A stretch of 64,000 nt of DNA, from positions 1 through 64,000 of the IMG/VR virus record IMGVR_UViG_3300003690_003399. One strand, 5' to 3'. Shown piece by piece: positions 7,153 to 40,360 of the stretch (positions are counted from its first letter, which is position 1; each line of letters starts with the position of its first letter). A model generated the notes under the pieces. That model made no database searches. It saw only the letters and a list, made by a program, of their open reading frames with translations, and was not told the DNA's origin. A program made the position numbers and the translations under genes. Source of the stretch: a virus.

Positions 7153-7165
7153 AGGAGACTATATA

Positions 7166-15135: not shown

Positions 15136-15509
15136 GGGGACGAAACGGTTTCGACGAAGAGCGAAGAAAATAGCACGCAAGACTGTGTGAGTAACACAGT
15201 AAAAATGCTCAAACTTTATAAATGCCAACGATAACGTTGAATTTGATTACGCCTTAGCTGCATAATCGGAAGTTGTTAGTGACTTTCTAAAAGAACACTA
15301 GACGTTTTCAATTTTAGGAAAAATTGATAGGAACTTAGTCATTTTGGTGACTATGTATATCTCGGTAGCCAACACCTTAAGTTGGTAAATGGATTCCCTG
15401 ACTTTGATCAAGGTGGCTGGTACTTCGGCGGTGAATGTACCAATTTCTTGTATATCGCGTTATTTTTGATTCTTTTCGGACTCGGGTTCGACTCCCGACG
15501 TCTCCACCA
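15136..15509 (+). ncRNA. ssrA: phage-encoded one-piece tmRNA; tag ANDNVEFDYALAA
   Basis: About 374 nt. The 5' end GGGGACGAAACGGTTTCGAC and the 3' end with a T-arm (GGGTTCGACTCCC) and GTCTCCACCA pair to form the tRNA-like acceptor stem; the CCA is encoded. The tag reading frame at 15224-15265 starts with resume codon GCC and ends TAA, reading ANDNVEFDYALAA, a typical C-terminal degron ending ALAA. It rescues stalled ribosomes. The RNA is continuous, not the permuted two-piece form of alphaproteobacteria. It follows its own promoter; no terminator is visible, so processing must set the 3' end. Confidence 0.97.
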
Positions 15510-23448: not shown

Positions 23449-24455
23449 AAAAAAAAGTATTAGTTCGAGCCCCAGTTTTGACACGCTCTGGTTATGGAGA
23501 GCATTCTAGATTTGTTTTGCGATCTTTGCGCACACAAGAAGATAAGTTGGATATATATCTACTACCAGTCTCTTGGGGTCAGTGCGGTTGGATTTACAAC
23601 GACGACGAAGAAAGACTATGGCTGGATCGCCTCATCACCAAAACCGCTCAATATCATCAACAACAAGAAAATCCTCAGTACGATATAAGCATTCAAGTTA
23701 CTATACCAAATGAATGGGAAAAAATGGCACCTGTTAATATTGGTGTCACGGCTGGTATCGAAACTAATCGAACTGCTCCGATTTGGCTTGAAAAAGCGAA
23801 TATGATGGATAAAGTTATAACAATTTCTAGTCATTCAAAAAATGTTTTTTTGGATACAGTATATGATGCAGTACATAAAGAAAGTGGTCAAAAGCTTCAA
23901 TTGAGGTGCAACAAACCGGTAGAAGTTGTACACTACCCTGTAAAAGAGTTTGAAAGTATAAATCTTAATTTAAAATTGAAGACTGATTTTAACTTTTTAG
24001 CGGTTGCTCAATGGGGCCCCCGAAAAAATTTAGAAAACACAATCAGATGGTTTGTAGAAGAATTTATCGATCAGCCTGTTGGTCTCGTTGTTAAAACTTT
24101 CAGGAAAGGCAACTCTATTATTGACCGCGCGCATATTGATACCCTAATTACAAATTTATTAAAAAGCTATGAGAACAGAGAGTGTAAGATCTATTTATTA
24201 CATGGAGATATGACAGACGAAGAGTTACATTCTCTTTATAAACATCCAAAAATTAAAGCATTTATTTCGCTTGCTCACGGAGAAGGGTTCGGGCTACCAC
24301 AGTTTGAAGCCGCATATTCGGGACTTCCCGTAATAGCGCCAGAATGGAGCGGCTATCTTGATTTTCTTTGCGCGCCTAAAAGAGATAAAAAGACGGGGAA
24401 AGAAAAAATTAAACCATATTTCGCATGTGTAGATCCCACAACAAGGTTCATATAA
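23445..24455 (+). CDS. GT4-family glycosyltransferase, C-terminally truncated
   Basis: The product is 336 residues. The acceptor loop LTRSGYGEHSRF and the donor motif HGEGFGLPQFEAAYSGLPVIAPEWSGY are intact, but the protein ends only about 45 residues later, without the final helices expected for GT4. The next gene begins with about 50 residues that look like that missing tail, in another frame, and codons before its ATG extend the similarity (IPQQGSYK). A deletion or frameshift near 24430-24455 is the likely cause. It may be inactive or need the neighbour for completion. Confidence 0.85.
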   Translation: MKKKVLVRAPVLTRSGYGEHSRFVLRSLRTQEDKLDIYLLPVSWGQCGWIYNDDEERLWLDRLITKTAQYHQQQENPQYDISIQVTIPNEWEKMAPVNIGVTAGIETNRTAPIWLEKANMMDKVITISSHSKNVFLDTVYDAVHKESGQKLQLRCNKPVEVVHYPVKEFESINLNLKLKTDFNFLAVAQWGPRKNLENTIRWFVEEFIDQPVGLVVKTFRKGNSIIDRAHIDTLITNLLKSYENRECKIYLLHGDMTDEELHSLYKHPKIKAFISLAHGEGFGLPQFEAAYSGLPVIAPEWSGYLDFLCAPKRDKKTGKEKIKPYFACVDPTTRFI

Positions 24456-24456
24456 A

Positions 24457-25410
24457 ATGAAGCTTCGAGAAGTTTATAAAGATCATGGAAGATTCAAGAA
24501 ACAAGCAAAAAATTTACAAAAATGGATTCTGGAAAACTTTGCAAGCGAAAAACAGTATTCATTACTTATAGAGAATATTTTCGATAAAGAATTTTTAAAA
24601 GCTTTTGATTATAAGAAAGTCAGTATTAATGAGATCCCCAAAATAAGTTTAATCACATCGGTTTTTAAGGCCGATGATTATATTGAACAGCTAATGGAAG
24701 ATGTCACTAGACAAACCATTTTTGAAGATAAATGTGAATGGATTATTTTAAATGCTAACGAAAAGGGTCACGATTATGAAGAAAAAGTCATTCTTAAGTA
24801 TGCAGAAAAATATCCTAATAACATAATTTACAAACGATTGGAAAAAGATCCGGGCGTTTATGATACTTGGAACATGGCAATTGAAATGTCGACCGGCGAA
24901 TATATTACAAATGTTAATTGCGATGATCGTCGACGACCGGATGGTCTAGAAGAACAAGCGAAATTGCTTACATACAATTCAGATATTGATCTAGTTTATA
25001 ATGATTCTTATATTGTACGCGAACCTAATATGAAGTGGGAAGACATAAGCCTAGAAACTTCAAGGTATAATTTCGATCAGTTCTCTAAAGAAGCGATGTT
25101 AAGAGGCAACCTTCCTCATAACAATCCCATGTGGAGAAAATCTCTTCATCAAAAGAATGGCTTTTTTAATCAAAAATATAGATCTGCCGCTGACTGGGAT
25201 TTGTGGTTAAGATGTGCGTTTAATGGCGCCAAATATTTGAAACATCCTGAAATATTAGGAGTTTATTATTATAATCCAACTGGGGTCTCCACCAATCCAG
25301 AGCACGATTCCTGGAAAAAAGAAGAGGAAAAAGAAATATGGACGGTATACCGTAAAAAACTGCAACAAGAAAAGGAAGACGAATCAACACCAGAGAGTAT
25401 TATTTTATAA
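24457..25410 (+). CDS. GT2 (GT-A) glycosyltransferase with a GT4-like N-terminal tail
   Basis: The product is 317 residues. Residues 1-50 (MKLREVYKDHGRFKKQAKNL...) look like a GT4 C-terminal helix pair. From about residue 62, ISLITSVFKADDYIEQLMEDVTRQT, DPGVYDTWNMAIEMSTGEYI and NCDDRRRP form a GT2 domain with its metal-binding acidic motif, followed by AADWDLWLR. It is probably a sugar transferase of the glycan island. The frame is open eight codons upstream of the ATG to a stop at 24430, consistent with fusion of a detached GT4 tail. Confidence 0.88.
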   Translation: MKLREVYKDHGRFKKQAKNLQKWILENFASEKQYSLLIENIFDKEFLKAFDYKKVSINEIPKISLITSVFKADDYIEQLMEDVTRQTIFEDKCEWIILNANEKGHDYEEKVILKYAEKYPNNIIYKRLEKDPGVYDTWNMAIEMSTGEYITNVNCDDRRRPDGLEEQAKLLTYNSDIDLVYNDSYIVREPNMKWEDISLETSRYNFDQFSKEAMLRGNLPHNNPMWRKSLHQKNGFFNQKYRSAADWDLWLRCAFNGAKYLKHPEILGVYYYNPTGVSTNPEHDSWKKEEEKEIWTVYRKKLQQEKEDESTPESIIL

Positions 25411-25412
25411 AA

Positions 25413-26207
25413 ATGGTTACGACTGTAAAAGATACCCAATTGAAAGCATTAAAGGATGTTGGTGCTTTTCTTAAAAACACAGATCAGAACAATCCACAGT
25501 TAGCTTCAACAATATGGAAGTATATTAACGATAACAATATCCAAACAGTCGTGTCACAAGCGGAATCTAATGATTATAGTGAGAATTGGTCACAAGAACT
25601 GGTAGGAAAATTACAACGAATATTCGTTAATTACCAACTTCGACAGCTTAATTTGGGAAATCCCTCCCCGGTTTTTTTTAAACTAAAAGAAGCTTTAGAT
25701 GTTCTACTGGATGAAAACCTTAGCTTGTCTTTGATCGATATTGGATGCACGAGTGGTTATTACTACGATGTTATTAACTTTTATTTTTCTAATAAATTCT
25801 ATTATACGGGATGTGATTATAATAAAGAATCAATTGAATTGGCCAAAGAATATTATCCTACGATTAATTTTCAAGTCGAAGACATAACAGAACTAAGCTT
25901 TAAAGACCGTGAATTCGAAGTTTCTTTATTGGCGGGCGTTATTGAACATGTTCCACAGTATAAAAAGGGATTAAAAGAGCTATGCAGAATAACGGATAAA
26001 TATATTGTTTTACACAGAATTTGGCTAACAGATGATGAGACTATTTGCAAAAAAGGAACACAATATTTTGTTCCTGTGATAAGAAACATGTATAATAAAG
26101 AAGATTTTTTTCATATTTTGAAAGAAAATAGTTTTACAGTTAAATGGAGTGGCGATGTTTATGACCAGAATTGTAGAACGTATATTTTAGAGAGAACAAC
26201 TGAGTAG
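25413..26207 (+). CDS. class I SAM-dependent methyltransferase
   Basis: The product is 264 residues. Motif I is LIDIGCTSGYYYD (about 107-119); the acidic motif II is YTGCDYNKESIELAK, and VEDITELSF plus SLLAGVIEHVPQY give motifs III-IV. The N-terminal 100 residues are helical. It lies directly behind the GT2 gene (gap of two bases) and probably methylates a sugar or sugar nucleotide; the acceptor atom cannot be told. Confidence 0.88.
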   Translation: MVTTVKDTQLKALKDVGAFLKNTDQNNPQLASTIWKYINDNNIQTVVSQAESNDYSENWSQELVGKLQRIFVNYQLRQLNLGNPSPVFFKLKEALDVLLDENLSLSLIDIGCTSGYYYDVINFYFSNKFYYTGCDYNKESIELAKEYYPTINFQVEDITELSFKDREFEVSLLAGVIEHVPQYKKGLKELCRITDKYIVLHRIWLTDDETICKKGTQYFVPVIRNMYNKEDFFHILKENSFTVKWSGDVYDQNCRTYILERTTE

Positions 26208-26214
26208 GATTTTT

Positions 26215-27036
26215 ATGCTATTACCAGTAGCTTCTGTTGTAACTAATAAGACTATTTGCGAATTTGATTTACTTAAATTAAGCTTAGAACAATATCATGA
26301 GTGTAGCTGGGTCATTTCATGCGATGAAACGGCTTATCAAAAATACAATAATGTTGAAAATATTGAGTGTTTGAAGTTAATAGAAAGCGATGATTGCGAT
26401 CATAATATAGCTTCAGAAGAACAGAAAGATAATTGGATGAAAGTCATGATGACCAAGTTTGATGCTGTTGAACGTTTAATCCTAAAGTTTAATCATGCTT
26501 TATTTTTAGATTCTGATATGATTTTTGTAAACCCCATTGAAGATAGAATATTAGAAATATTTAACAATGAAAATATTGATGCGTGTATATGTCAACATAT
26601 GACTAATGATTGGCAGAATGAAGCTCAACATGGATTATATAATGGTGGAATGTTTCATGTAAGAAGCAGTGATTTTATTGCTGAATGGAAAAGTCTATCT
26701 AAACAGTATAAAAAATATGGGTTTTATTTTGAACAGCAGCCTCTAGAATTTGTACAAAGAAATTTTAATTCTTTTAATCTCCCCATAAACTATAACATTG
26801 GGTGGTGGAGATTTAACAGGCCTAGCACTCAAAATAGATTGAATTTATTAAAGAATCTCGACGACAAGATATTTTTTGGCAACAAACCAGCAATTAATTT
26901 TCATGTGCATGCTTTACGTGAAATTGGATATCAAAACTTTGGTCAGTTTTTAGTTGAGAAAATTTGCAACTTATTAGATAACACATCTAATAAAAATTAT
27001 AGGACGATTTTAGGGGTTATTAGAAATGGCGTTTGA
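26215..27036 (+). CDS. GT8-like nucleotide-sugar transferase
   Basis: The product is 273 residues. ALFLDSDMIFVNPI carries the DxD metal/nucleotide motif in the hydrophobic strand typical of GT8/GT-A enzymes, followed by LYNGGMFHV, the usual acceptor-side loop, and a late INFHVHAL stretch. The next gene overlaps its end by 11 bases. The sugar is unknown. Confidence 0.75.
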   Translation: MLLPVASVVTNKTICEFDLLKLSLEQYHECSWVISCDETAYQKYNNVENIECLKLIESDDCDHNIASEEQKDNWMKVMMTKFDAVERLILKFNHALFLDSDMIFVNPIEDRILEIFNNENIDACICQHMTNDWQNEAQHGLYNGGMFHVRSSDFIAEWKSLSKQYKKYGFYFEQQPLEFVQRNFNSFNLPINYNIGWWRFNRPSTQNRLNLLKNLDDKIFFGNKPAINFHVHALREIGYQNFGQFLVEKICNLLDNTSNKNYRTILGVIRNGV

Positions 27037-27649
27037 TTTGGTTGGAACAAATTATGGCGGTTGGATGATTGACATTGATTTGATACCGCACCAAAGCGTC
27101 ATTATTTCTGCCGGTGTGGGAGAGGATATAAGCTTTGATTTACAATTGATAAAAATGCGGAATTGCAAGATTATTGGTATTGATCCTACTCTCAAGAGTC
27201 ATAGGTTTATAGAAAACCGAAAAAATCTTGATAACTTTAAGTTAATAAAGGGCGCCCTGCACCCTGCTGATGGTGATGTTATCAAAATATACAAAACGAA
27301 GAGAAGTGACTATGTTTCAGAATCCATTTTACCAGATCATCAAAGCGTAAATAATTTTGATTCATATTTTTCAGAAACAATCAGCTTAAATAAAATCTTC
27401 GAAGAATATGAAGAGATTTCTGTTATCAAAATGGATATTGAAGGTTCTGAATACGGGGTAATACAGGCTTTAAAATACATTCCTGATAGCGTTAAACAAT
27501 TTTGTGTTGAATTCCATCATTTTTGCACCAGCAAAACCATTGAAGACACTAAAGAAATGATTAAAATGTTAGCAGAGTTAGGCTTCAAGAATTATGTCGA
27601 AAAGCCTTCTACCCAGCATTTAAACGAATTAACGTTTTGGAGGGGCTAA
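27026..27649 (+). CDS. FkbM-family methyltransferase
   Basis: The product is 207 residues. SVIISAGVGEDISFDLQLIK, CKIIGIDPT and SVIKMDIEGSEYGVIQAL (about 128-145) are the motif I, motif II and conserved DIEGxE signature of FkbM-type O-methyltransferases, which usually methylate sugar hydroxyls in glycan clusters. The start overlaps the GT8-like gene; the stop abuts the next ATG. Confidence 0.88.
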   Translation: MAFDLVGTNYGGWMIDIDLIPHQSVIISAGVGEDISFDLQLIKMRNCKIIGIDPTLKSHRFIENRKNLDNFKLIKGALHPADGDVIKIYKTKRSDYVSESILPDHQSVNNFDSYFSETISLNKIFEEYEEISVIKMDIEGSEYGVIQALKYIPDSVKQFCVEFHHFCTSKTIEDTKEMIKMLAELGFKNYVEKPSTQHLNELTFWRG

Positions 27650-28444
27650 ATGGATTATTTCACTGACACAAAGAAAAAAATTATTTATGATCCAATAGAA
27701 ACCATCGAGGCCCTAAAAGAATTTCATAATTTATATGCTAAACGCCCCGTTAAAAATAATTCAGGAGGGATGCAGTCTCCTCATCTTTTTAATACTTGGT
27801 ATGCATTAAAAAAACTAAAACCTAAATTAGTAATTGAGAGTGGGGTGTGGAAAGGCCTCGGAACGTGGGCGATAGAGAAGGCGCTTCCCAGCGCTCAAAT
27901 AATTTCAATAGATGTTGATTATTCACATTTAGAATTTAAAAGTTCAAATGCGACTTATCTAGATAAAGATATTAAAACTCATAACTGGGATAAAGTATTC
28001 AATGAACAATATCCCGATATTAAGAGAAATGAAATTGTAGTTTTTTTAGATGATCATCAAGATTTTTTAGAGCGATTAGAATTTATTTATAATTTGGGAA
28101 TAAAGCATATCTTATATGAGGATAACTATCCTTCTTCACAAGGAGACGTTCTTTCTCCTAAGAAAATTTTATCTTGTCAAGATTATATAATGGAGAGAAG
28201 AGGTATCCCCCAAATGAATCAATTTTCATATTTTGATTATGATAAATTTGTAAATTTTGTCAAAACTTATGAAGAGCTGCCCCCCATTTTTAAACTAGAT
28301 AAAACTCGATGGAAAGATAAATGGGATCCCCATACTTATCCTACGATAAAAGCTTTGTTACCTTTAGAAAAACAAAATGAATTTCCTATTTTTTTTGAAG
28401 AAGCATTATCATATACATGGCTATGTTATATGGAATTAAAATAA
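27650..28444 (+). CDS. TylF/CmcI-like class I methyltransferase
   Basis: The product is 264 residues. LVIESGVWKGLGTWAIEKALPSAQIISIDVDYSHL (about 60-95) is a SAM-binding Rossmann start with ESGVWKG as the glycine loop, and EIVVFLDDHQDFLERLEF supplies the acidic DDH metal-like motif seen in TylF/cephalosporin hydroxylase-type enzymes. It probably methylates a sugar in the island. A tight gap (0 bases) separates it from the FkbM gene. Confidence 0.75.
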   Translation: MDYFTDTKKKIIYDPIETIEALKEFHNLYAKRPVKNNSGGMQSPHLFNTWYALKKLKPKLVIESGVWKGLGTWAIEKALPSAQIISIDVDYSHLEFKSSNATYLDKDIKTHNWDKVFNEQYPDIKRNEIVVFLDDHQDFLERLEFIYNLGIKHILYEDNYPSSQGDVLSPKKILSCQDYIMERRGIPQMNQFSYFDYDKFVNFVKTYEELPPIFKLDKTRWKDKWDPHTYPTIKALLPLEKQNEFPIFFEEALSYTWLCYMELK

Positions 28445-28455
28445 GATACGATTAA

Positions 28456-29274
28456 ATGAACACGATTTACATAATGAATTTTGATGACGTAAACGACCCT
28501 GTTAAAACCGAAGAAACTATCTTCAATCAATTATGGGAGCTTAAAGACACGATTAATACAGATTATGTGTATGTTGTTTTTCCGTGGGCATTTTCCATCA
28601 ATCATCATGGCATTGTCCATACCCAGAAGCTTATTGATCAAATTTGTACTCAACACTGTGATAAAAAAATGTTTTTTGTTTGCCAACATATTTTAGTGAA
28701 CAAATTAAACTTTCACGGTAATTTGGTCTTTACGCCGCATGCAACTATTTTAGATTCTTATGTGCCAATTCCACATTATTCTTGCAATTATGAGTTAGAA
28801 TTAGTTAAACCCTGGGATGAAAGAGAATATGAATTTAGCTTTATTGGATCTTTTCGTACACACCCTGTAAGGCAAAAGCTTTATGAATTTTTTAAAGCAA
28901 GGAAAGATTGCTTGATTGTTGATACCGGCTCTTGGCATTTTGAAGCATCCGAAAAGAAGCAAGAAATTAATGCAAGAAAGTACATTGAAATTTTAGGTAA
29001 TACGAAATATTCGCTTTGCCCTAGAGGCACAGGACCATCTACTATTAGAATATGGGAGTCTATGGCAATGGGATCCTGTCCTGTGATTGTAAGTGACTAT
29101 TTAAAAATGCCTTTAGAGCGTGAATTAGATTCTACAATGTGGTTAAGAGTACTGGAAAAGTGTGATAATATAAGGGATATAGATTTTTGCTTTGATAACG
29201 AAGAGTATTGGGAGTGGTTTTCTAATGAGAATTTGTATAGGTCGATTCTCAGCGCGCTAAGGGATAAAAAGTGA
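28456..29274 (+). CDS. exostosin-like (GT47-type) glycosyltransferase
   Basis: The product is 272 residues. The C-terminal part has YSLCPRGTGPSTIRIWESMAMGSCPVIVSDYLKMP, the hallmark exostosin/GT47 donor-site motif, preceded by FSFIGSFRTHPVRQKLYEF. The N-terminal 100 residues form the other Rossmann half. It is slightly short for the family but looks complete. It overlaps the next start as GTGA. The likely role is transfer of a sugar in the island glycan. Confidence 0.82.
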   Translation: MNTIYIMNFDDVNDPVKTEETIFNQLWELKDTINTDYVYVVFPWAFSINHHGIVHTQKLIDQICTQHCDKKMFFVCQHILVNKLNFHGNLVFTPHATILDSYVPIPHYSCNYELELVKPWDEREYEFSFIGSFRTHPVRQKLYEFFKARKDCLIVDTGSWHFEASEKKQEINARKYIEILGNTKYSLCPRGTGPSTIRIWESMAMGSCPVIVSDYLKMPLERELDSTMWLRVLEKCDNIRDIDFCFDNEEYWEWFSNENLYRSILSALRDKK

Positions 29275-29960
29275 CAGAAATTTTAGTTATTGGAAACAAA
29301 CCTTATACTAATCTATGTCTTAACAAGGTTGTTGATCGTTTTGATATAATTTATAGATTTAATCTTGCTTATCCCGGTAAAAATAATGGTACAAAATTTG
29401 GTAAGTTGGCAATGTGTCAACATGTGTACAATAATTTTGTAAAAAATCCTATTAGCAAGGAGCAAATAATACAAATATATGGTCGAGAGCAGGAAGCAGT
29501 ATTTGTAAGTGACTGGTATGATTTCTTTCAAGAAAATAAAGAAAACTTTGATGAGATATTTCATGAAAATGAACACAATTGGGGGGAATGGAACAGGATG
29601 CTTGAAAAATATGGCAGTCCTCATAAATTTTCAAAAATGGCGTCAACAGGATATTCAGTTATTTTTAGAAATTTAGCAGCTGGCAATAGAGTATATGTTT
29701 CGGGCTTTACTTTATGTAATAATGAAATTAGAAAAACAATAGGAGAGAAAGATGAAGTTGTCAAAGCAAAAAATCAAGGGAAAACCTGTCACTCATTTTC
29801 TGACGAAAGTCGCATCTTAGCTTGGTTGCACAACAATAAAAAGATCGACGCAACATTGTGTATGTTAGATGACACCGACGAACTTAGTCTAAAAATCAAC
29901 GAATATAACACAGAACCTTCGGAGTTCATACTTAATTTATTAAATGGGAAAATATTATGA
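29271..29960 (+). CDS. sialyltransferase-like (GT29/GT42-type) glycosyltransferase
   Basis: The product is 229 residues from GTG overlapping the upstream TGA. ILVIGNKPYTNLCLNKVVDRFDIIYRFN (N-terminal) is a nucleotide-binding strand and loop like that of bacterial sialyltransferase-fold proteins. The late ASTGYSVIF, RVYVSGFTL and a His..Glu helix (HSFSDESRILAWL) match the expected C-terminal pattern. These enzymes use CMP-activated acid sugars. With KdsA and KdsB in the same island, CMP-Kdo is a candidate donor, by inference. The family call is tentative. Confidence 0.5.
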   Translation: MTEILVIGNKPYTNLCLNKVVDRFDIIYRFNLAYPGKNNGTKFGKLAMCQHVYNNFVKNPISKEQIIQIYGREQEAVFVSDWYDFFQENKENFDEIFHENEHNWGEWNRMLEKYGSPHKFSKMASTGYSVIFRNLAAGNRVYVSGFTLCNNEIRKTIGEKDEVVKAKNQGKTCHSFSDESRILAWLHNNKKIDATLCMLDDTDELSLKINEYNTEPSEFILNLLNGKIL

Positions 29961-30307
29961 AAATACAAGGTAAAGTGTGGGGAAAGACCCAAGATATATT
30001 TAAAAACTCTAATTTTGAGCTTCATAGAATCGAGGCCAGAAAAGGCGGGTTTTGCTCAAAGCACCAACATAAGCATAAATATAATGCTTTTTTTGTTGAA
30101 AAAGGCAAGCTAAAGATAACAATATATGAAATTGATTATGATTTGGTCGATGAAACTATCATCTCCACAGGAGAGCTAACAATAGTTAAGCCTGGAGCCT
30201 ACCACAGATTTGAGGCACTCGAAGATACAATTTGTTATGAAATCTATTGGGTAGAATTGGATCATGACGACATAGAAAGGGAAGACGTTGGCGGGAACAT
30301 TAAATAA
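29957..30307 (+). CDS. cupin-fold protein
   Basis: The product is 116 residues. KHQHKHKYNAFFVEKGKLKI and PGAYHRFEAL are the two cupin motifs with metal-binding histidines and a Glu (or Tyr) in the first. Small cupins in glycan clusters often act as sugar isomerases or epimerases, or bind sugars. ATGA overlap with the sialyltransferase-like gene and a 20-base overlap with kdsB place it in the acid-sugar part of the island. Confidence 0.85.
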   Translation: MKIQGKVWGKTQDIFKNSNFELHRIEARKGGFCSKHQHKHKYNAFFVEKGKLKITIYEIDYDLVDETIISTGELTIVKPGAYHRFEALEDTICYEIYWVELDHDDIEREDVGGNIK

Positions 30308-30998
30308 AATAGGTATCATACCAGCGAGACTACACTCAACAAGGTTTCCTAAAAAAATATTAACAGATATAAATGGAAAGCCGATGGTGATATGCACAGC
30401 CGAACAAGCGTCTAAAGCTAAAAGTTTAGATAGAGTACTTATAGCTATTGATAGTGACGAAACATATCAAGCCTTAAAAGACTTTAATTATGAATTAGTA
30501 ATGACATCAAACGAGCACAAGTCAGGAACAGATAGAATTGCAGAAGTGGTAAAGCGCATTAAAAGTATTGATATAGTTGTTAATATTCAAGCAGATGAGC
30601 CTTTTATCGACCCTACACTAATTGATAAACTAACAGAAGCCCATCTTGATTCAACTGTAGAAATGTCAACACTGGTCAGCACACAACTATCAACAAAAGA
30701 CTATGATAATGAAAGCATTGTCAAAGCTTTTTTAAATGAAAATAATTTCGTAACAGACTTTAAAAGAAAATCTAGGGCGCGCCATAAGCATTTAGGCATA
30801 TACGGTTTTACAAGAAAAACATTATTAGATTTTATATCATTTGAACAGACAGTCAACGAAAAAAACAGAAATCTAGAGCAAATGAGAGCGCTCGATAATG
30901 GGATTAAGATTAAAGCTGTGTTAACCAGTAAAGATTCTTTATCTATTAACACATTAAATGATCTTTTATATGTTTATAAAAAGGGCAATACGCGATGA
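30288..30998 (+). CDS. kdsB: CMP-Kdo synthetase (3-deoxy-manno-octulosonate cytidylyltransferase)
   Basis: The product is 236 residues from TTG at 30288 inside the cupin gene; AAAGGGAAG lies upstream. GIIPARLHSTRFPKK (about 8-22) is the KdsB/NeuA CTP-binding signature. The later motifs SGTDRIAEVV and VVNIQADEPFI, plus a terminal ISINTLNDL, fit KdsB. It activates Kdo with CTP to CMP-Kdo. KdsA (35911) in the same island supports Kdo over sialic acid. The length is close to the usual 250. Confidence 0.93.
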   Translation: MAGTLNKIGIIPARLHSTRFPKKILTDINGKPMVICTAEQASKAKSLDRVLIAIDSDETYQALKDFNYELVMTSNEHKSGTDRIAEVVKRIKSIDIVVNIQADEPFIDPTLIDKLTEAHLDSTVEMSTLVSTQLSTKDYDNESIVKAFLNENNFVTDFKRKSRARHKHLGIYGFTRKTLLDFISFEQTVNEKNRNLEQMRALDNGIKIKAVLTSKDSLSINTLNDLLYVYKKGNTR

Positions 30999-31906
30999 AA
31001 CCCTTAGATATATCTAAAAAGTCTATGAAAAAAGGAATGAAAGACAACATAGAAAGGAAGCAGCCTTCTATAAACGATGTCGTTAGACACAAAGGTCTCC
31101 CCTTGTTCAGCTTTATTGAATTAAATATAAATGAAATTTGTAATAGAGTATGTCCTTTTTGCCCAAGAGTGGATCCAAAAATATATCCTAATCAAAATAT
31201 CCACATGGATATGGAAATAGTGGAAAAAATAGCTGAACAACTTAAAGAATTGAATTTTACTGGTATTGTGAATATAAGCGGTACCGGGGAACCGCTACTA
31301 ACCAAATATATCACTGATATTATAAATGAATTTGGAAAACGAGGAATTCATATTGAAATAGTGACCAATGGTGATGTACTGCAAAGCCGGAAAGGGCCAG
31401 AGTTAATCAAAAATTTATATGCAGCAGGATTGCAACAGTTTGTAGTTAGCATGTATGACGGCCCTGAGCAAATAGAATCATTTAATACGTTATTTGCTAG
31501 TTGTGGTATAGATGAAAGCTTATACTCCTTAAGGGATAGGTGGTACGATGAATCAGAGGATTATGGGCTCCTGTATACAAATAGAGCCGGTAACATAGGG
31601 TTTGAACATTTATCGGACATAGCTAAAGAAAAGTTAATAAATTCAGGCAAGTCGGCTTGTTTTTATACACATTATTCTATGATGATTGATTGGAATGGTG
31701 ATGCGTTATTGTGCTGCCAAGACATGTATAATCGTACAGTAAAATTTGGAAATGTTAAAAACAAATCTCTTATCGATATATGGAGAGATACAAAACTAAT
31801 GGAATTTAGAAATAAACTTAAAAATGGGGAGAGGTCATCATCACCCTGTAATAATTGCAATGCAAATGGTCAAATATTTGGAAGCAATCATGTAAAAGCA
31901 TGGTAG
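30995..31906 (+). CDS. radical SAM enzyme with SPASM-like C-terminus
   Basis: The product is 303 residues. Cys49-x3-Cys53-x2-Cys56 (CNRVCPFC) binds the SAM-cleaving [4Fe-4S] cluster; ISGTGEPLL is the GGE-like SAM motif. The C-terminal segment (MIDWNGDALLCCQDMYN... SPCNNC) has the Cys pattern of a SPASM auxiliary cluster. Such enzymes in sugar clusters perform dehydration, epimerisation or C-methylation, among others. It overlaps kdsB by ATGA and is followed by a methyltransferase. The substrate is unknown. The A-type Fe-S carrier at 694 may help mature it. Confidence 0.9.
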   Translation: MKPLDISKKSMKKGMKDNIERKQPSINDVVRHKGLPLFSFIELNINEICNRVCPFCPRVDPKIYPNQNIHMDMEIVEKIAEQLKELNFTGIVNISGTGEPLLTKYITDIINEFGKRGIHIEIVTNGDVLQSRKGPELIKNLYAAGLQQFVVSMYDGPEQIESFNTLFASCGIDESLYSLRDRWYDESEDYGLLYTNRAGNIGFEHLSDIAKEKLINSGKSACFYTHYSMMIDWNGDALLCCQDMYNRTVKFGNVKNKSLIDIWRDTKLMEFRNKLKNGERSSSPCNNCNANGQIFGSNHVKAW

Positions 31907-31914
31907 GTCGAAAA

Positions 31915-32562
31915 ATGAATTATATTTTTAAACCAAATGGAGACAAACTAGAGTTTGTTGGCGATTTTGAGGCACTTTATCAAAATGACAACGACCCGTG
32001 GAATCAGTCAGGAAAAGATGGAGAAATAAGCTATTACTATGCTCATAGCAGAAAGAGGCTGGTCGATCAGCTAAAGAAAATCAATCCCGACTCTTTGCTT
32101 GAAACCGGATGCGATTTGGGCTATACTACCAAGATCATTCAGAAATCTTTACCAGATTGCAATGTTGTTGGCATGGATATTAGTAGAACGGCAATAGTGA
32201 AGGCTGTAAACTTATTCCCTAATTTGGACTTCATAACTGAAGATATTGGTAGCGCAAACTTTAATTCAGATACAAAATATGATGTAGTTATTCTAAATCA
32301 ATTGTTGTGGTATGTCTTAGAATCGCTTTCCGAGACATTTGAAAATTGTTTTTCTATACTAAATCCAAATGGTAGGATAATAATCAGCCAAGCATTTTTA
32401 CAGGCACCACAGAAATACGGGAAAGATATTTGTGATGGGTTTGATGGGTTAATCAGTTACTTGAGCGACCACAAGTTTAATATAGAATATTCTCAATTAG
32501 ATAATTCTAATTCTTTTGTCCATAATGATGGGCTGATCATATTAAAAAAGCATGATAGTTAA
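31915..32562 (+). CDS. class I SAM-dependent methyltransferase
   Basis: The product is 215 residues. The frame is open further upstream into the radical SAM gene, but the ATG at 31915, nine bases after the previous stop, fits best. SLLETGCDLGYTTKIIQ is motif I, VVGMDISRTAI motif II and YDVVILNQLLWYV motif IV. It is related to small-molecule methyltransferases of the NodS type. The acceptor is unknown. Confidence 0.85.
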   Translation: MNYIFKPNGDKLEFVGDFEALYQNDNDPWNQSGKDGEISYYYAHSRKRLVDQLKKINPDSLLETGCDLGYTTKIIQKSLPDCNVVGMDISRTAIVKAVNLFPNLDFITEDIGSANFNSDTKYDVVILNQLLWYVLESLSETFENCFSILNPNGRIIISQAFLQAPQKYGKDICDGFDGLISYLSDHKFNIEYSQLDNSNSFVHNDGLIILKKHDS

Positions 32563-33679
32563 AAAAGCCTATAAATGTTATATTGAAAATGATAAAGGTG
32601 TCAAGCTAATTGACACCTCAATGGGGTCAGGTGTCCAAATAATAGGACACAACAACCCGTTGATTAAAGAAATGGGCAAGCAGATAGAAAGAGGAACTAT
32701 TTATACAATTCCCAACTGCCACACAGGTAAGGTAAATTCTTATTTGAAAGAACACATAAACCCCGATCTTGATGAGCAATACATATTCTGTAATTCGGGT
32801 ACGGAAGCTAACATGAGGGCTATAAGATTAGCCCGTGCATACACAGGCAAAAATTTAGTTGGCAGATTCCATGGCGGCTGGCACGGCGGACTAGATGGTT
32901 TCCTAGAAGAACACCCCGACAACAAGGGTATACCTTCAGAGACTGATAGCTTGTTTAGGGTCTTGCCCTACAATGATGATCAGTGTTTCGAGAAGATTAC
33001 TCATGATATGGCTGCTGTAATAACAGAGCCCGTGCAGGGATCTAATCCTAGATCTGACGTTAAACAGTTTCTGCAAAAATTAAGAGCCCATTGCACCAAG
33101 ACGGGAGTATTGTTAATATTTGATGAAGTTCTGACGGGATTTAGATTATCCGCAAAGGGTGCCGCTGGTGTTTTTAATGTGATGCCCGATATAGTAACTT
33201 ATGGGAAAGTTTTAGGAGGAGGATTCCCAATTGGAGCGGTTGGCGCCAAGTCAGAAATTATAAAAACAAAAAATGTTTTTTATGGAGGAACTTTTTCTGC
33301 GAATCCATTAAGCATGTATGCCGCTATCCTAATTCTTGAAACTATAATTGATACAAAGTACATTCAATACGATAAGCTAAATTATGCTGGAAAGCTATTT
33401 AGAGGTGAATTAAATAAGTTTTTTATTGCGGAAGATAAAAAAATGAGAGTAATAGGCTGCGGCGCAGTCAATAGAATTATCTTTACAGATAAATTTATCA
33501 AAAATAGAAAAGATAGAGATAACTTTGAGCCTAAAAATGCACAAGAAATGTTTTCTAATAAACTAAAAGAACTGGGTGTGTTTATTAATGGAAATGGACT
33601 ATATCATTTTTCTATGAGTCATACACCAGAGGTTATTAAAGAACTTATTAATATAATCAAACTAGCGAGCAAAACATGA
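32552..33679 (+). CDS. class III (glutamate-1-semialdehyde aminotransferase-like) aminotransferase
   Basis: The product is 375 residues. NSGTEANMRAIRLAR (81-95), FDEVLTGFR (Asp191) and YGKVLGGGFPIGAVG (PLP-binding Lys219) are the class III aminotransferase motifs closest to GSA aminotransferases. In a glycan island it may convert a keto or aldehyde group to an amine on a sugar precursor rather than make haem. It is shorter than GSA aminotransferase (about 425) but has all catalytic motifs. ATGA overlap with the next gene. Confidence 0.9.
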   Translation: MIVKKAYKCYIENDKGVKLIDTSMGSGVQIIGHNNPLIKEMGKQIERGTIYTIPNCHTGKVNSYLKEHINPDLDEQYIFCNSGTEANMRAIRLARAYTGKNLVGRFHGGWHGGLDGFLEEHPDNKGIPSETDSLFRVLPYNDDQCFEKITHDMAAVITEPVQGSNPRSDVKQFLQKLRAHCTKTGVLLIFDEVLTGFRLSAKGAAGVFNVMPDIVTYGKVLGGGFPIGAVGAKSEIIKTKNVFYGGTFSANPLSMYAAILILETIIDTKYIQYDKLNYAGKLFRGELNKFFIAEDKKMRVIGCGAVNRIIFTDKFIKNRKDRDNFEPKNAQEMFSNKLKELGVFINGNGLYHFSMSHTPEVIKELINIIKLASKT

Positions 33680-34485
33680 AGATTGAAAAGTGCTGCAAAG
33701 AGGATATATTTAAATGTATAGACCTACAGGAAAATGATGTTATCTTATATTTGGGGGGAAGAATTGACGATGACGCCCTATACCCGCCGGGATACAGAGA
33801 ATATTTAAAGGCTAAAATAAAAAAGTTGAAGCCAACTAAAATAATTTGTCACAACCACTGGTATGCTAAGAAATATTATGAGAAGGGAATCTTAACCAAG
33901 CATACTAAAATAGATATGGTATTAGTTTGTTACCACCATCTTAGAAACGGTAATTTCCCATCAATTGATCCTGCGGATTATATCGATCATCGCACCTACA
34001 TGAAGACATTGATAGATAAGAATCCTAGCATAGTCTATGCAATATATATAAGCCAGGGAAACAAGCCCCCCTCGGTGGATGTTAACGATGGTTGGTTTAG
34101 AGAAGATTACGATCTAAATAATGCTAAATACTTCTCTTTCGATAGAACATATTCTCCCAAGGATTTAACGGATGAGGAACTGGGTCATGGAGGACGAACA
34201 AGAAATGCTAGTGATGGGTTTGCTATGGTTGCCAATTTGGTGAAGGCGGGTTTTAAGAATATAAATATACTTGGATTTTCTGCATTTGGATCCGATGAAG
34301 ACATGTCTTATCATACTGCGTATAAGTCAGGAGACCGTAGGCTCTTCGGTCGAAAATACTTCAATCTTGGTACCTCGGAAGATCAACCAGCAGAAGCAGA
34401 TATATTGCAATTTTGGGTAAAAACTAAAAAGATAAAGAACGTGGAAGATTATAGTAAATTGATGTTTCACTTAAAGGAGAAATAA
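33676..34485 (+). CDS. sialyltransferase-like glycosyltransferase, second copy
   Basis: The product is 269 residues. DVILYLGGRIDDDAL, then the long C-terminal stretch RNASDGFAMVANLVKAGFKNINILGFSAFG and a closing E-x-DILQFW helix, repeat the pattern of the gene at 29271 and of CST-I/GT29-like proteins (asparagine/serine-glycine loop, GF strand). Sequence identity to known enzymes looks low, so the call is tentative. Presence of two such proteins beside KdsA/KdsB suggests use of a CMP-activated acid sugar. Confidence 0.42.
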   Translation: MKIEKCCKEDIFKCIDLQENDVILYLGGRIDDDALYPPGYREYLKAKIKKLKPTKIICHNHWYAKKYYEKGILTKHTKIDMVLVCYHHLRNGNFPSIDPADYIDHRTYMKTLIDKNPSIVYAIYISQGNKPPSVDVNDGWFREDYDLNNAKYFSFDRTYSPKDLTDEELGHGGRTRNASDGFAMVANLVKAGFKNINILGFSAFGSDEDMSYHTAYKSGDRRLFGRKYFNLGTSEDQPAEADILQFWVKTKKIKNVEDYSKLMFHLKEK

Positions 34486-34487
34486 AT

Positions 34488-35198
34488 ATGGTAGACAAAA
34501 AAAAAAGAGAGGAGTATAACAAATCTTTGGAGTACAACGGACAAGCGTTGGCAGACAAATTTGTTTTAAATTGCACAGGTTTTAAGAGGGGTGGTTACTT
34601 TTTAGAACTAGGATCTAGGGAGTTTAAACGGAACAACAACTCTTATATTTTAGAGAAAAGTTTTGGATGGAAAGGTGTGATGGTCGAAAAGGTCGCTACA
34701 CACAAAGGAGACTATAAATCCAATAGACCGAACAGCATACCTATCATCCAAGACGCCACTCAAATAAACTATAAAAAAGTATTTGAGGATAATAATTTTC
34801 CGTCTAATTTGGATTTTTGGCAATTAGATTTAGAGGTGAGAGACAATACCGCTTTAGATACCTTAATAAAGATTAACGAAGAAATACTGGGTTATTATAG
34901 TTTTGCAACAGTAACAATGGAACACGATATTTATAATGGTCTGCAAAATTCTGTCAATACTCGAATTAAATCAAGAGAGATTTTAGAGAGCAGAGGTTAC
35001 TACTGTGTGTTTAGAGATACTATGACTTTCATGGACGGTCCGCCGAACTCTCCCTACGAAGATTGGTGGGTCCATCCAGACTTAGTTAATATGGAATATA
35101 TAAAATCCCTTCAGGAAAGAAATCAAGATAATTATTCATTAATTAATGTAAAGGGAAGAAATATAGAGTGTTTCAACTCTGATCTGATAGAATATTAA
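34488..35198 (+). CDS. FkbM-like methyltransferase
   Basis: The product is 236 residues with a good AAGGAGAA site upstream. GGYFLELGSREFKRNNNSYILEKSFGWKGVMVEKV (about 35-69) is the SAM-binding region of FkbM-type proteins (glycine loop, then an acidic residue after the second strand), and DFWQLDLEV stands at the usual DIEG position. It probably methylates a glycan component. The ending is a little divergent, so activity is not certain. Confidence 0.75.
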   Translation: MVDKKKREEYNKSLEYNGQALADKFVLNCTGFKRGGYFLELGSREFKRNNNSYILEKSFGWKGVMVEKVATHKGDYKSNRPNSIPIIQDATQINYKKVFEDNNFPSNLDFWQLDLEVRDNTALDTLIKINEEILGYYSFATVTMEHDIYNGLQNSVNTRIKSREILESRGYYCVFRDTMTFMDGPPNSPYEDWWVHPDLVNMEYIKSLQERNQDNYSLINVKGRNIECFNSDLIEY

Positions 35199-35213
35199 AT
35201 AGAGGGTAATAAA

Positions 35214-35906
35214 ATGCAACCAACCATAAAAGACCTTTTCGATAAAATTCAGAATGCAGAAGTTCAGACTGAACCGTTTGATCATCTGGTTGTAGATAAT
35301 TTATTACCTGATGATTTTTTTAAAGAGCTAGCTAAAGAATTAGAGGCTGAGGACTTTCCTAGCAATTATGTAAGGGGGCCTTACGGAAATAAAGAACGCT
35401 TTGGGGTAGATTTAACAGATTATTCTGCTTGGAAAACCTCTGGAAAGAATCTTCCCATAAAGATCCACGAGGGTAATTACAAATCATTATCATCGGGAAA
35501 GAGTGCCAATGTTCAATTCTTTGTTGACCTTCTTTTGGAAAATGAAAAGGGCTTTTATTCTTTACTTGGCTCTAAACTGCCTACTGAGAGATTTCAAGAT
35601 AACTATTTTTTTCATGTAAATATGACCAAAGATAGCGTAGGCTACACAATAGAAGCCCACACAGACGATAAAGAGAACATTTTTACTATTCTTTTCTACA
35701 CTCCAGAGACAGATGTAAATAAAGAGTTCGGACTACATGTCTGTAAAGAAAAAATAGATTTTATGCCTAATAGAATGATCATTTTTGCTCCCTCTAAACC
35801 ACACAGCGAGAGGACACCCACTTGGCATGAAGTAAAGCGCTTATCAGATAAATTAATTGGAACGAGAAATTCGTTCCAAATGTTTTTTTTAAGAAATAAT
35901 AGCTAA
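35214..35906 (+). CDS. 2-oxoglutarate/Fe(II)-dependent oxygenase
   Basis: The product is 230 residues. EAHTDDKENIFTILFYTPE carries the HxD iron motif, and PNRMIIFAPSKPHSERTPTWHEV supplies the distal His (in PHSER) and downstream 2-oxoglutarate contact, as in the prolyl-hydroxylase-like family. In phage glycan islands such enzymes may hydroxylate or oxidise sugars or proteins. The substrate is unknown. Confidence 0.85.
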   Translation: MQPTIKDLFDKIQNAEVQTEPFDHLVVDNLLPDDFFKELAKELEAEDFPSNYVRGPYGNKERFGVDLTDYSAWKTSGKNLPIKIHEGNYKSLSSGKSANVQFFVDLLLENEKGFYSLLGSKLPTERFQDNYFFHVNMTKDSVGYTIEAHTDDKENIFTILFYTPETDVNKEFGLHVCKEKIDFMPNRMIIFAPSKPHSERTPTWHEVKRLSDKLIGTRNSFQMFFLRNNS

Positions 35907-35910
35907 GGAT

Positions 35911-36681
35911 ATGATAAATACTAAATTCATAATAGCTGGACCATGTGTGTTAGAATCAAAAGATATGTGTCTAGAAATAGCAAAATATTGTAAATCTATT
36001 TGTGATGAATACGGCTTTACATATGTTTTTAAAGCTTCGTTTGATAAAGCAAACAGGACTTCAATAAATTCATTTAGAGGCCCCGGATTGAAGAAATCAA
36101 TAGATACATTCGTTGAAATAAGAAAGCATGTAGACTTCATAACTACCGATATACACGAACCTTATCAGGCAAAAGAAATTGCTCCATATGTAGATGTAAT
36201 ACAAATACCTGCTTTCCTTTGTAGACAAACAGATCTGCTAGTTGCAGCAGGAGAGACTGGTAAAATTGTTAATATTAAAAAAGCCCAATTTTTATCTGTT
36301 GATAAGATGGAGCACGCAATTAAAAAAATCTATCATACTGGTAACAAAAATGTGATGTTGACAGAACGAGGTTCCATGCTGGGCACGGACGATTTAGTGG
36401 TTGACTTCAGGAATATACATAAATTAAAACAATTTGGCTGTCCAGTTATTATGGATGTTACGCATGCTTGTCAAACATATAAGCAAACAAATGGTATAAC
36501 TGGCGGGAATAGAATTTATGGTCCACTCTTTGCTCAGTGTGCTAAAATATTTGGTGCTGATGGCACCTTCGCAGAGGTCCACCCAAAACCAGAGGCAGCA
36601 TTGAGTGATTCTGCAAATACTATGAATTTTAATATGTTTGAGAACATGGTAAAAGCATTAGCAACATTGGAGGATGATTAA
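35911..36681 (+). CDS. kdsA: 3-deoxy-D-manno-octulosonate 8-phosphate synthase, metal-dependent class
   Basis: The product is 256 residues. It condenses PEP and arabinose-5-phosphate to Kdo-8-phosphate. FKASFDKANRTS (40-51) is the family signature. The metal ligands of the metal-dependent class are all present: Cys12 (AGPCV), His185 (DVTHA), Glu222 (AEVH) and Asp233, matching the Aquifex enzyme positions almost exactly; E. coli has Asn in place of the Cys. TAATG overlap couples it to the HAD phosphatase that follows. Confidence 0.96.
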   Translation: MINTKFIIAGPCVLESKDMCLEIAKYCKSICDEYGFTYVFKASFDKANRTSINSFRGPGLKKSIDTFVEIRKHVDFITTDIHEPYQAKEIAPYVDVIQIPAFLCRQTDLLVAAGETGKIVNIKKAQFLSVDKMEHAIKKIYHTGNKNVMLTERGSMLGTDDLVVDFRNIHKLKQFGCPVIMDVTHACQTYKQTNGITGGNRIYGPLFAQCAKIFGADGTFAEVHPKPEAALSDSANTMNFNMFENMVKALATLEDD

Positions 36682-37001
36682 TGATTTATTACGTTGATAT
36701 TGACGAAACAATTTGTGATTATGAAGGCGGCGATAAATACGCCGCAAGGGATTATGAGAACGCTAGACCAATAAAAGAAAACATTCAGAAAATAAATGAT
36801 CTATTTGATGAAGGGCATACAGTGGTTTATTGGACAGCCAGAGGTAGTACCACTGGAATTGATTGGTATGATCTTACTGGCCGCCAACTAAAAGAGTGGG
36901 GTGCTAAGCACCATAACTACAAGGTTGGAAAGCCTGCTTATGATGTTTTTATATGTGACAAAGCAATAAATTCTGAAGTTTTTTTTAAGGAAGGAGAATA
37001 G
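36681..37001 (+). CDS. small HAD-superfamily phosphatase, candidate Kdo-8-phosphate phosphatase
   Basis: The product is 106 residues. YYVDIDETIC gives the DxD nucleophile pair (Asp6, Asp8), YWTARG the motif II Thr, and a late GKPAYDVFICDKAI the Lys and acidic residues of motifs III/IV. Direct coupling to kdsA (TAATG) suggests it may do the KdsC step, although KdsC proper is longer (about 180). That assignment is inference from position. Confidence 0.8.
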   Translation: MIYYVDIDETICDYEGGDKYAARDYENARPIKENIQKINDLFDEGHTVVYWTARGSTTGIDWYDLTGRQLKEWGAKHHNYKVGKPAYDVFICDKAINSEVFFKEGE

Positions 37002-37002
37002 A

Positions 37003-37554
37003 ATGAAAGAATACAATAACACTGATCGAACTGCTAGCTTAGAAAGACTCGCACCGGATTTGTTCAAATATAAATCGGTTTTGAATATAGGCGCCCGCAC
37101 TAGTCGATTTAATTATGGACAAGAATTTAGAGAAGCGGGGTATAATATTACGGTTTTGGAGCCGTTTAAACCAAATGTAGAATATTTGCGTACATTACTG
37201 TGGATACATGAAGTTATTCAAGGAGACGTTCGTGATTTGAAAGTTTTTAAGGAAAGAGAGCAAAAATTTGATGTTGTTTTCTGGTGGCATGGCCCCGAGC
37301 ATGTGATAGAAGAAGATATGATAAAGGTTATACCCGAACTAGAAAAAATTTGTAATCATCTGGTTGTGTTGGGGTGTCCATGGGGACATTGCCCGCAAGG
37401 CGAGATTCATAATAATCCATGGGAAAAGCACATTGGGCACTATTCATATTATGTGTTCGAAGAATTTGGTTATGATGTTGAATGCTTGGGCCTACAGAGC
37501 GTCGCAGGATCTAACATTACAAGCGTGAAGAGAATAGACGGGAGAAAAAAATGA
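37003..37554 (+). CDS. class I SAM-dependent methyltransferase
   Basis: The product is 183 residues. SVLNIGARTSRFNYGQEFREAGYNITVLEPF gives motif I and II, and FDVVFWWHGPEHV the motif IV region with a characteristic HGPEH sequence. A GGAGAATAG sequence lies just upstream. It overlaps the dehydrogenase gene by ATGA. The acceptor is unknown, probably sugar related. Confidence 0.8.
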   Translation: MKEYNNTDRTASLERLAPDLFKYKSVLNIGARTSRFNYGQEFREAGYNITVLEPFKPNVEYLRTLLWIHEVIQGDVRDLKVFKEREQKFDVVFWWHGPEHVIEEDMIKVIPELEKICNHLVVLGCPWGHCPQGEIHNNPWEKHIGHYSYYVFEEFGYDVECLGLQSVAGSNITSVKRIDGRKK

Positions 37555-38387
37555 AAGTTGGAATTGTTGGTCAAGGATTTGTAGGACAAGCTCTTAAAAA
37601 AGGTTTTGAAAAATATTTTCATATTGAAACTTATGATAAGTTTAAGAAGAAAGAATCAAGTTGCTTAAGTTTAGAAGAGCTAACATCTAAAACAAAGATA
37701 ATTTTTATTTGCGTGCCCACCCCAATGAACAAAGATGGTACGTGTAATTTAAATATAGTTAATGAAGTCGTACGGAACATTGATTTTTGTAATAATAAAA
37801 ATGTTGTCGTAATCAAATCTACCATCCCACCAAACACCACCGCTATGTTAAACGCTGAGTGTAATAATATACAAGTTATTTTTAACCCAGAATTTTTAAC
37901 AGAAGCTAACTTTATTGAAGATTTCAAAAATCAAACTAGAATTATTATTGGCGGTCCGCGCCCAGGTTCAACACTGGTTAAAAATTTATACAGAAAAGCA
38001 TTTCCTGAGACGCCATTGATTAAAACTAGTTCAACAATTGCAGAAATGGTTAAGTATTTTACTAACTGTTTTTTAGCCACAAAAGTTAGTTTTTCTAATG
38101 AAATTAAACAAATATGTGAAAAAATTGATATAGATTATGATAAAATAGTAGAGTACGCTTTATATGATAGCCGATTGGGGAAAACGCACTTCTCAGCTCC
38201 GGGCCCAGACGGAAAAAGTGGGTTTGGTGGATCCTGTTTTCCTAAAGATTTAAATGCGCTAATTAAAACGGCTGAAAATTTAGATATAGATCCTAAAGTT
38301 TTAAAATCAGTCTGGGAAAAGAATCTTGAAGTAAGACCAGAGAAAGACTGGGAAAAATTAAAAGGAAGAGCCGTAAGCGAATCATGA
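37551..38387 (+). CDS. UDP-glucose/GDP-mannose 6-dehydrogenase, short form
   Basis: The product is 278 residues. The N-terminal NAD site is GIVGQGFVGQAL; FICVPTPMN and STIPPNTT are family motifs; GFGGSCFPKD holds the catalytic Cys230. The usual C-terminal UDP-binding domain (another 120 or more residues) is missing, as in some other phage versions. It oxidises a nucleotide sugar to the uronate. It closes the glycan island and overlaps the next gene by ATGA. Confidence 0.9.
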   Translation: MKVGIVGQGFVGQALKKGFEKYFHIETYDKFKKKESSCLSLEELTSKTKIIFICVPTPMNKDGTCNLNIVNEVVRNIDFCNNKNVVVIKSTIPPNTTAMLNAECNNIQVIFNPEFLTEANFIEDFKNQTRIIIGGPRPGSTLVKNLYRKAFPETPLIKTSSTIAEMVKYFTNCFLATKVSFSNEIKQICEKIDIDYDKIVEYALYDSRLGKTHFSAPGPDGKSGFGGSCFPKDLNALIKTAENLDIDPKVLKSVWEKNLEVRPEKDWEKLKGRAVSES

Positions 38388-40070: not shown

Positions 40071-40360
40071 AAAATGTTGACAAGTACATTGAAGAATCAC
40101 TTACCAATATAAGGGACGACCGCGCAGTAACTTCTACTCTTTTAACTGAGCTGTTAATAGAGATGAAAAAAGCTGGCGACCTTGAAACTCACAAACAGTT
40201 AGGCCTCATCGCTTCTAAATATGTTGAAACTCTCCAGCGTTCCAACGAACAATTAGTTAAAATTGCCGCGCTGCTAAATAAAAGACAGGGCGGCTCTATT
40301 GAATTAGATGAAAGCGACAAACAAGAACTTTTTGACTTAATCCAGGGAGAAGGTAATTAA
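40055..40360 (+). CDS. helical hypothetical protein
   Basis: The product is 101 residues, beginning inside the end of the sigma factor gene and coupled to the next gene by TAATG. It is all helical (IEESLTNIRDDRAVTSTLLTELLIEMKKAG, KYVETLQRSNEQLVKIAALLNK). Adjacency to the gp55-like gene invites comparison with the small co-activator gp33, but no sequence feature supports that. Unknown. Confidence 0.65.
   Translation: MGQRIKNVDKYIEESLTNIRDDRAVTSTLLTELLIEMKKAGDLETHKQLGLIASKYVETLQRSNEQLVKIAALLNKRQGGSIELDESDKQELFDLIQGEGN

Follow-up and report, generated by a model that had tools for sequence, protein, structure and literature searches.

KdsA and KdsB in a phage surface-glycan cluster that also encodes a GT29-like glycosyltransferase

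Introduction

The genes kdsA and kdsB, encoding the synthase of 3-deoxy-D-manno-oct-2-ulosonic acid (Kdo) 8-phosphate and the CMP-Kdo synthetase, are among the commoner glycan-related auxiliary metabolic genes (AMGs) of surface waters (PMC10653327), and the same two enzymes are carried by marine phages such as Synechococcus phage S-SCSM2R. The Kdo pathway of CroV and Fadolivirus also comprises viral KdsA and KdsB within a carbohydrate cluster (PMC9614988). As both genes have been reported as viral AMGs and in a giant-virus pathway, encoding the two enzymes is not in itself new. Here, we analysed a stretch of 64,000 nucleotides (the window; positions 1 to 64,000 of IMG/VR record IMGVR_UViG_3300003690_003399), in which KdsA and KdsB lie in a surface-glycan cluster together with a protein resembling the GT29 sialyltransferases. 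We propose, with a probability of roughly 0.6, that KdsA and KdsB form an add-on module of the surface-glycan operon, supplying CMP-Kdo to the GT29-like transferase.

Two precedents count in favour of a GT29-family enzyme handling Kdo. RCKT1, a plant GT29 protein, is needed for the Kdo of the pectin rhamnogalacturonan II; the evidence is genetic, with no in vitro activity as yet (PMC11288761). As proposed here for the phage protein, a sialyltransferase-like GT29 protein is thereby tied to Kdo and not to sialic acid. The Neisseria sialyltransferase Lst transfers Kdo, and Lst and Haemophilus LsgB can use CMP-Kdo on lipooligosaccharide (PMC8092323). Kdo can also be aminated: as summarised in PMC5125639, citing Gattis 2013, KdnB and KdnA of Shewanella oxidise an alcohol of Kdo and then transaminate it, yielding 8-amino-Kdo.

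Results

Identity of KdsA and KdsB

The identity of KdsA and KdsB is secure and their active-site residues are intact. KdsA scored 325 bits against NCBIfam PRK05198, passing the cut-off (242) by 83 bits, and 313.3 bits against TIGR01362, 0.7 bit short of the cut-off (314); its score against the model of 3-deoxy-D-arabino-heptulosonate 7-phosphate (DAHP) synthase was 103.8, far under the cut-off (267.75). The top matches in the PDB were KDO8P synthases (E 2.5e-64), and the metal ligands C12, H185, E222 and D233 were all present, together with a KANRTS motif (KANRxS) at position 46. These results bear out the original prediction of a metal-dependent KdsA with four ligands. The predicted KdsB was confirmed by PRK05450.1-5 (221 bits, cut-off 193), by TIGR00466 (155.3 bits, cut-off 155.2) and by the leading PDB matches, all of which were KdsB. 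The two genes are not adjacent, KdsB lying approximately 5 kb upstream of KdsA.

The GT29-like protein

Two sialyltransferase-like proteins had been predicted as candidate users of CMP-Kdo, and one of them stood. The protein encoded just upstream of the cupin gene (Table 1) has a motif-L-like block, GN..(x)..VD.fD.IYRfN, and an HxxxxE motif (H174/E179), which are conserved across eight homologues. An S-like block is also present, the profile match being confined to the L block (64-74%). The top eight PDB matches of its structural model were human ST8SiaIII (best E 1.3e-3, probability 0.98, TM only 0.39, pLDDT 65). The second protein, encoded downstream of the aminotransferase, matched no Pfam family and no fold clearly, resembled the first only weakly by profile (32% probability), and was rejected as sialyltransferase-like.

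GT29 genes beside viral KdsA and KdsB

Genes of the GT29 family are linked to viral KdsA/KdsB repeatedly, in several unrelated arrangements. PF00777 (GT29) matches were found in 11 of the 49 viral Kdo contigs, nine of them over the cut-off, representing approximately six lineages. In contig L011 (L-numbers are labels of the other viral contigs compared), a PF00777 protein (60.5 bits) occupies the slot of the GT29-like gene of the window, directly upstream of cupin and KdsB. The order is KdsA-cupin-GT29-rSAM (radical S-adenosylmethionine enzyme) in L301, and JmjC-cupin, cupin, KdsB, KdsA, GTx, GT29 in marine L005-type viruses. Two GT29 queries matched 3 of 50,697 phage records, and one of these, LR756500, also carries KdsA and KdsB (chance overlap approximately 1e-4). 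In L085, a 210-kb viral contig, a GT29-like relative (about 60% identical) is directly followed by a fusion gene that joins an HMGL-like aldolase to a cytidylyltransferase (10672-12279), possibly another source of a CMP-ulosonate, so that CMP-ulosonate donors would fit. Judging from these gene neighbourhoods, the GT29-like enzymes probably draw their donors from the CMP-ulosonates, a class that includes CMP-Kdo.

A GT29-seeded scan, whose results were ordered by their likeness to a query linked to KdsA so that its fractions are not population values, returned the GTx-GT29 pair in 80 of 80 loci and the cupin in 56 of 60, while KdsB-KdsA was optional (15-17 of 60) and located exactly between cupin and GTx. 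Three changes in the presence of KdsA and KdsB suffice on the GT29 protein tree, which speaks against their frequent gain and loss; insertions or losses were therefore few, and the counts of independent cases are modest.

Several observations weigh against the proposed GT29-Kdo link. The GT29-like protein of the window has no match to PF00777 or to any other Pfam family, and its fold match is weak. KdsA and KdsB were absent from 44 of the 70 L005-type GT29 loci scored. Copies of the GT29-like gene (52-70% identical) were present in contigs without detectable KdsA/KdsB, and L086, L102, L104 and L098, the last with a different rSAM, carry the unit of GT29-like protein, cupin, rSAM and aminotransferase but no KdsA/KdsB; the short contig L101 harbours the unit without KdsA/KdsB and without the cupin, and all five contigs are fragments. 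Consequently, the GT29-like gene is not an exclusive partner of KdsA/KdsB, and its predicted role as their user is supported by the PF00777 genes beside KdsA/KdsB in other viruses but weakened by these copies. Another donor is therefore possible: either the phages with KdsAB-negative cassettes would use the CMP-Kdo of the host or the unit would have another substrate. Since GT29-cupin units occur with and without KdsA/KdsB, the latter look like an add-on supply module.

The same cassettes are the basis of a different explanation, in which rSAM, aminotransferase and GT29-like protein make an amino-sugar unrelated to Kdo and KdsA/KdsB were inserted there by chance. In contigs where KdsA/KdsB are not detectable, conservation of the unit is indeed 52-86%, but cupin, GT29 and a relative of the rSAM recur with KdsA in the unrelated layouts of L301 and L011. 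As repeated chance insertion at a similar place is unlikely, we regard this explanation as quite improbable.

The Kdo module in other viruses

A scan of viral contigs with KdsA gave 146 relatives, of which 80 were retained, forming 45 non-redundant groups together with the window. KdsB was present in 26 of these groups, mostly as the neighbouring gene, and was not found within the stretch examined in the other 19. A small cupin (MKxGKxWGxTE...) was as frequent as KdsB (27/45) and was the commonest companion. A full KdsD/KpsF was encoded by none of 42 viral KdsA contigs (in two the match covered roughly half the model, in a third it was weak). KpsC/S (GT107-type, PF05159) was not found over the cut-off in any of these 42 contigs, a search that did not extend to GT99 and GT140, and WaaA (GT30, PF04413) was over the cut-off in none of the 49 viral Kdo contigs. 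The models for KdsC, KdsD/KpsF, KpsC/S and WaaA all gave matches in control genomes. NeuB was not found over the cut-off in the contigs examined. With no KdsC (see below), full KdsD or Kdo transferase of the WaaA or KpsC/S type, the viral modules look like host-dependent boosters ending at CMP-Kdo.

This composition would also suit phages that boost the Kdo pool of the host, sustaining lipopolysaccharide (LPS) synthesis or replacing a degraded host pathway, with no transferase of their own as user. Gram-negative hosts already possess KdsC, KdsD and WaaA, and the viral contigs lacking KdsC and full KdsD, as well as the 19 groups without KdsB, agree with such a role. However, KdsA/KdsB lie inside phage glycosyltransferase clusters and adjoin GT29 in several independent arrangements, which makes a boosted pool without a phage user doubtful.

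Two further observations were made in these contigs. Just before KdsA (8598-10765), L011 encodes a short cytidylyltransferase as well as a paralogue resembling DAHP synthase, so that this virus has two genes of each kind. An apparent KdsA-KdsB fusion in L301 was rejected, as the long C-terminus is not KdsB.

The HAD protein and the phosphatase step

A minimal hydrolase of the haloacid dehalogenase (HAD) superfamily follows KdsA, its start overlapping the KdsA stop by 1 nt. The catalytic motifs are intact (DxDxT at 6-10, T52, K84 and D93), which suggests an active HAD enzyme and does not by itself identify the substrate. The KdsC model TIGR01670, which found its matches in E. coli, matched neither the HAD protein nor anything else in the record of the window or in 41 other viral KdsA contigs. 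Because a first HMM of the family also collected nucleotidyltransferases fused to HAD domains, only its matches to short proteins were used. The family was present in 379 phage records, compared to 14 for KdsA, and by our own count in only 6 of the 45 viral KdsA groups. The closest phage relatives (54-57%) sit with genes for an aldolase, a carbohydrate (heptose-type) kinase and a heptose-type adenylyltransferase, or with a thymidylate kinase gene. A dedicated KdsC was thus rejected as a firm claim, given the negative KdsC model and the wide occurrence of the family without KdsA.

In the lineage of the window, by contrast, the HAD gene was found in four of four KdsA contigs and was absent or weak (one weak case) in six contigs without KdsA (Fisher p 0.048, or 0.005 leaving out the weak case; as the contigs are related, these values overstate independence). 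It also adjoins KdsA in L018, in a different gene order. Because the gene tracks KdsA in this lineage, the HAD protein was kept as a fair candidate for the Kdo-8-phosphate phosphatase; as none of the 42 viral KdsA contigs encodes KdsC, the host KdsC is an equal candidate and would serve equally well. Of the coupled HAD phosphatase in the original prediction, an intact gene overlapping KdsA remains, but it is EcbF/BcbF-like and common without KdsA. The predicted route from phosphoenolpyruvate (PEP) and arabinose-5-phosphate to CMP-Kdo is likewise upheld for KdsA and KdsB, given host arabinose-5-phosphate, with the HAD step unproven.

The rSAM and aminotransferase pair

The best PDB match of the rSAM profile was BtrN (E 1.4e-23), a radical alcohol dehydrogenase (PMC9012708). 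Copies of the aminotransferase (69-80% identical) were present in seven other viral contigs, each time with an rSAM gene at most three genes away. The two remain close even in L098 and L105, where the rSAM differs or has diverged, and the replacement in L098 shares 48% identity with a bacterial rSAM (L123) whose gene likewise lies next to one for an aminotransferase. A scan of genome contigs for a bacterial source of the rSAM gene found no relative. The corresponding aminotransferase scan gave mostly HemL-like proteins; the best (41%) lies beside another rSAM gene in a metagenome-assembled genome labelled Helicobacter. That the pair could aminate a sugar is speculative, although an oxidation and then a transamination would parallel the way Shewanella makes amino-Kdo. 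A pathway to a CMP-activated amino-Kdo, in which KdsA/KdsB supply CMP-Kdo or Kdo, the BtrN-like enzyme oxidises a hydroxyl, the class III aminotransferase aminates it and the GT29-family enzyme transfers it, seems unlikely to us; if true, it would provide a viral, microbial Kdo-type transferase of GT29 and add a second way of making amino-Kdo, unrelated to the first.

Layout of the glycan cluster and its surroundings

The window belongs to an 80,075 bp IMG/VR entry, a tailed-phage fragment of about 80 kb with baseplate gp6- and gp25-like, PhoH and late-sigma-like genes. The cluster is dense and on a single strand, nearly all neighbouring pairs overlapping or abutting (Table 1). Its second GT4 was graded GT4-like, so the glycosyltransferase set reads GT4, GT4-like, GT2 and GT47-like. 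From the GT29-like gene to the HAD gene the order is that of Table 1, mostly overlapping, with an FkbM-like protein, assigned by eye and lacking a Pfam match, between the protein of no assigned function and the putative 2-oxoglutarate (2OG) oxygenase, upstream of KdsA. The methyltransferase is also kept in L004, L011 and L102. The oxygenase candidate, kept in L004 and L104, has a weak PHROG match with an unrelated label.

Table 1. Features of the surface-glycan cluster; coordinates refer to the window.
Feature	Coordinates	Strand	Basis or remark
Surface-glycan cluster, whole	22180..38387	+	~16 kb; two GT4, GT2, FkbM and other methyltransferases, GT47-like, Kdo genes, UDP-glucose dehydrogenase
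GT29 (sialyltransferase)-like glycosyltransferase	29271..29960	+	best candidate user of CMP-sugar
Small cupin (Cupin_2), conserved companion	29957..30307	+	PF07883
KdsB, CMP-Kdo synthetase	30288..30998	+	TTG start; PF02348; curated scores
BtrN-like radical SAM/SPASM enzyme, putative alcohol dehydrogenase	30995..31906	+	PF04055 and PF13186; C49xxxC53xxC56
SAM methyltransferase	31900..32562	+	PF08242; 31900 start assumed, in frame with the 31855 TTG open reading frame
Class III (HemL-like) pyridoxal phosphate (PLP) aminotransferase	32552..33679	+	PF00202; PLP Lys K219
Protein without assigned function	33676..34485	+	no Pfam match
Putative 2OG-Fe(II) oxygenase	35214..35906	+	assigned by eye; no Pfam match
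KdsA, Kdo-8-phosphate synthase, metal-dependent type	35911..36681	+	curated family scores, PDB matches, active-site residues
Minimal HAD hydrolase, 106 aa (EcbF/BcbF-like, phrog_1238)	36681..37001	+	possible Kdo-8-phosphate phosphatase

Virion glycosylation occurs in large phages, and the glycan cluster lies near structural genes, so the modified glycan might be carried by the virion instead of the host. There is, however, no sequence sign of a virion acceptor, and Kdo is a typical envelope sugar; we consider a virion glycan decidedly unlikely.

Other features were observed in the window. The UDP-glucose dehydrogenase-like protein (37551-38387, 278 aa) matched the N-terminal and central domains, with no match to the C-terminal domain. 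The phage encodes a one-piece tmRNA gene (15136-15509) with the tag ANDNVEFDYALAA. An N-terminal peptide, MKLT(K/N)SKLKQLIKE, is repeated on several unrelated open reading frames, and LLFENWR-like N-termini occur on others (14321 and, in L002, 15371, 15788 and 16150; also 1262, 2181 and 3329); the repeated peptides are perhaps a packaging or targeting tag. Two very long open reading frames (7118-11152 and 40360-44694) contain MepA-like (Peptidase_M74) stretches, one above and one below the Pfam cut-off. An IscA/HesB-type Fe-S assembly protein (PF01521) is encoded at 694-1014.

Discussion

In the mechanism we propose, KdsA would condense PEP with host arabinose-5-phosphate to Kdo-8-phosphate, which the host KdsC, the adjacent HAD protein or both would dephosphorylate. 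KdsB would then activate Kdo with CTP, and the resulting CMP-Kdo, possibly modified before transfer, would serve the GT29-like enzyme as donor, so that Kdo or a derivative of it would be attached to a glycan, more probably on the host surface than on the virion. Which phosphatase acts, which donor and acceptor the GT29-like enzyme uses and what the phage gains are inferences.

Metagenome surveys have counted viral kdsA and kdsB but assigned them no purpose, and the repeated pairing of a KdsB-KdsA supply unit with a GT29-cupin unit offers a testable one: phages may put Kdo or a derivative on surface glycans through a sialyltransferase-family enzyme, repainting the surface of infected cells. GT29 is known mainly from eukaryotes, with the plant protein RCKT1 as its one member linked to Kdo, and small phage homologues near donor-synthesis genes could ease testing of the GT29-Kdo link.

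Compared to the described systems, the enzymes are known, the viral arrangement is new and the GT29-Kdo hypothesis is testable. Lst and LsgB belong to GT52, not to GT29, and draw on the bacterium's own CMP-Kdo. RCKT1 is a plant Golgi protein acting on pectin (PMC11288761), whereas the phage protein has diverged widely and falls short of the PF00777 cut-off. The retaining Kdo transferases of GT99, GT107 and GT140 are also CMP-Kdo users (PMC12887879); the GT107 type (PF05159) was not over the cut-off here. The Shewanella pathway uses an iron alcohol dehydrogenase (PMC5125639), while the phage pair consists of a BtrN-like rSAM and a class III aminotransferase of putative function. CroV and Fadolivirus differ in having API (arabinose-5-phosphate isomerase) and KdsC domains in addition, and in infecting eukaryotic hosts (PMC9614988). 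The reports on marine viral kdsA and kdsB (PMC10653327; S-SCSM2R) list the genes and propose no transferase or cassette logic. In S-SCSM2R, KdsA and KdsB are convergent and have no cupin, rSAM and aminotransferase unit alongside, unlike in the window, where all of these genes share one strand of a single glycan cluster.

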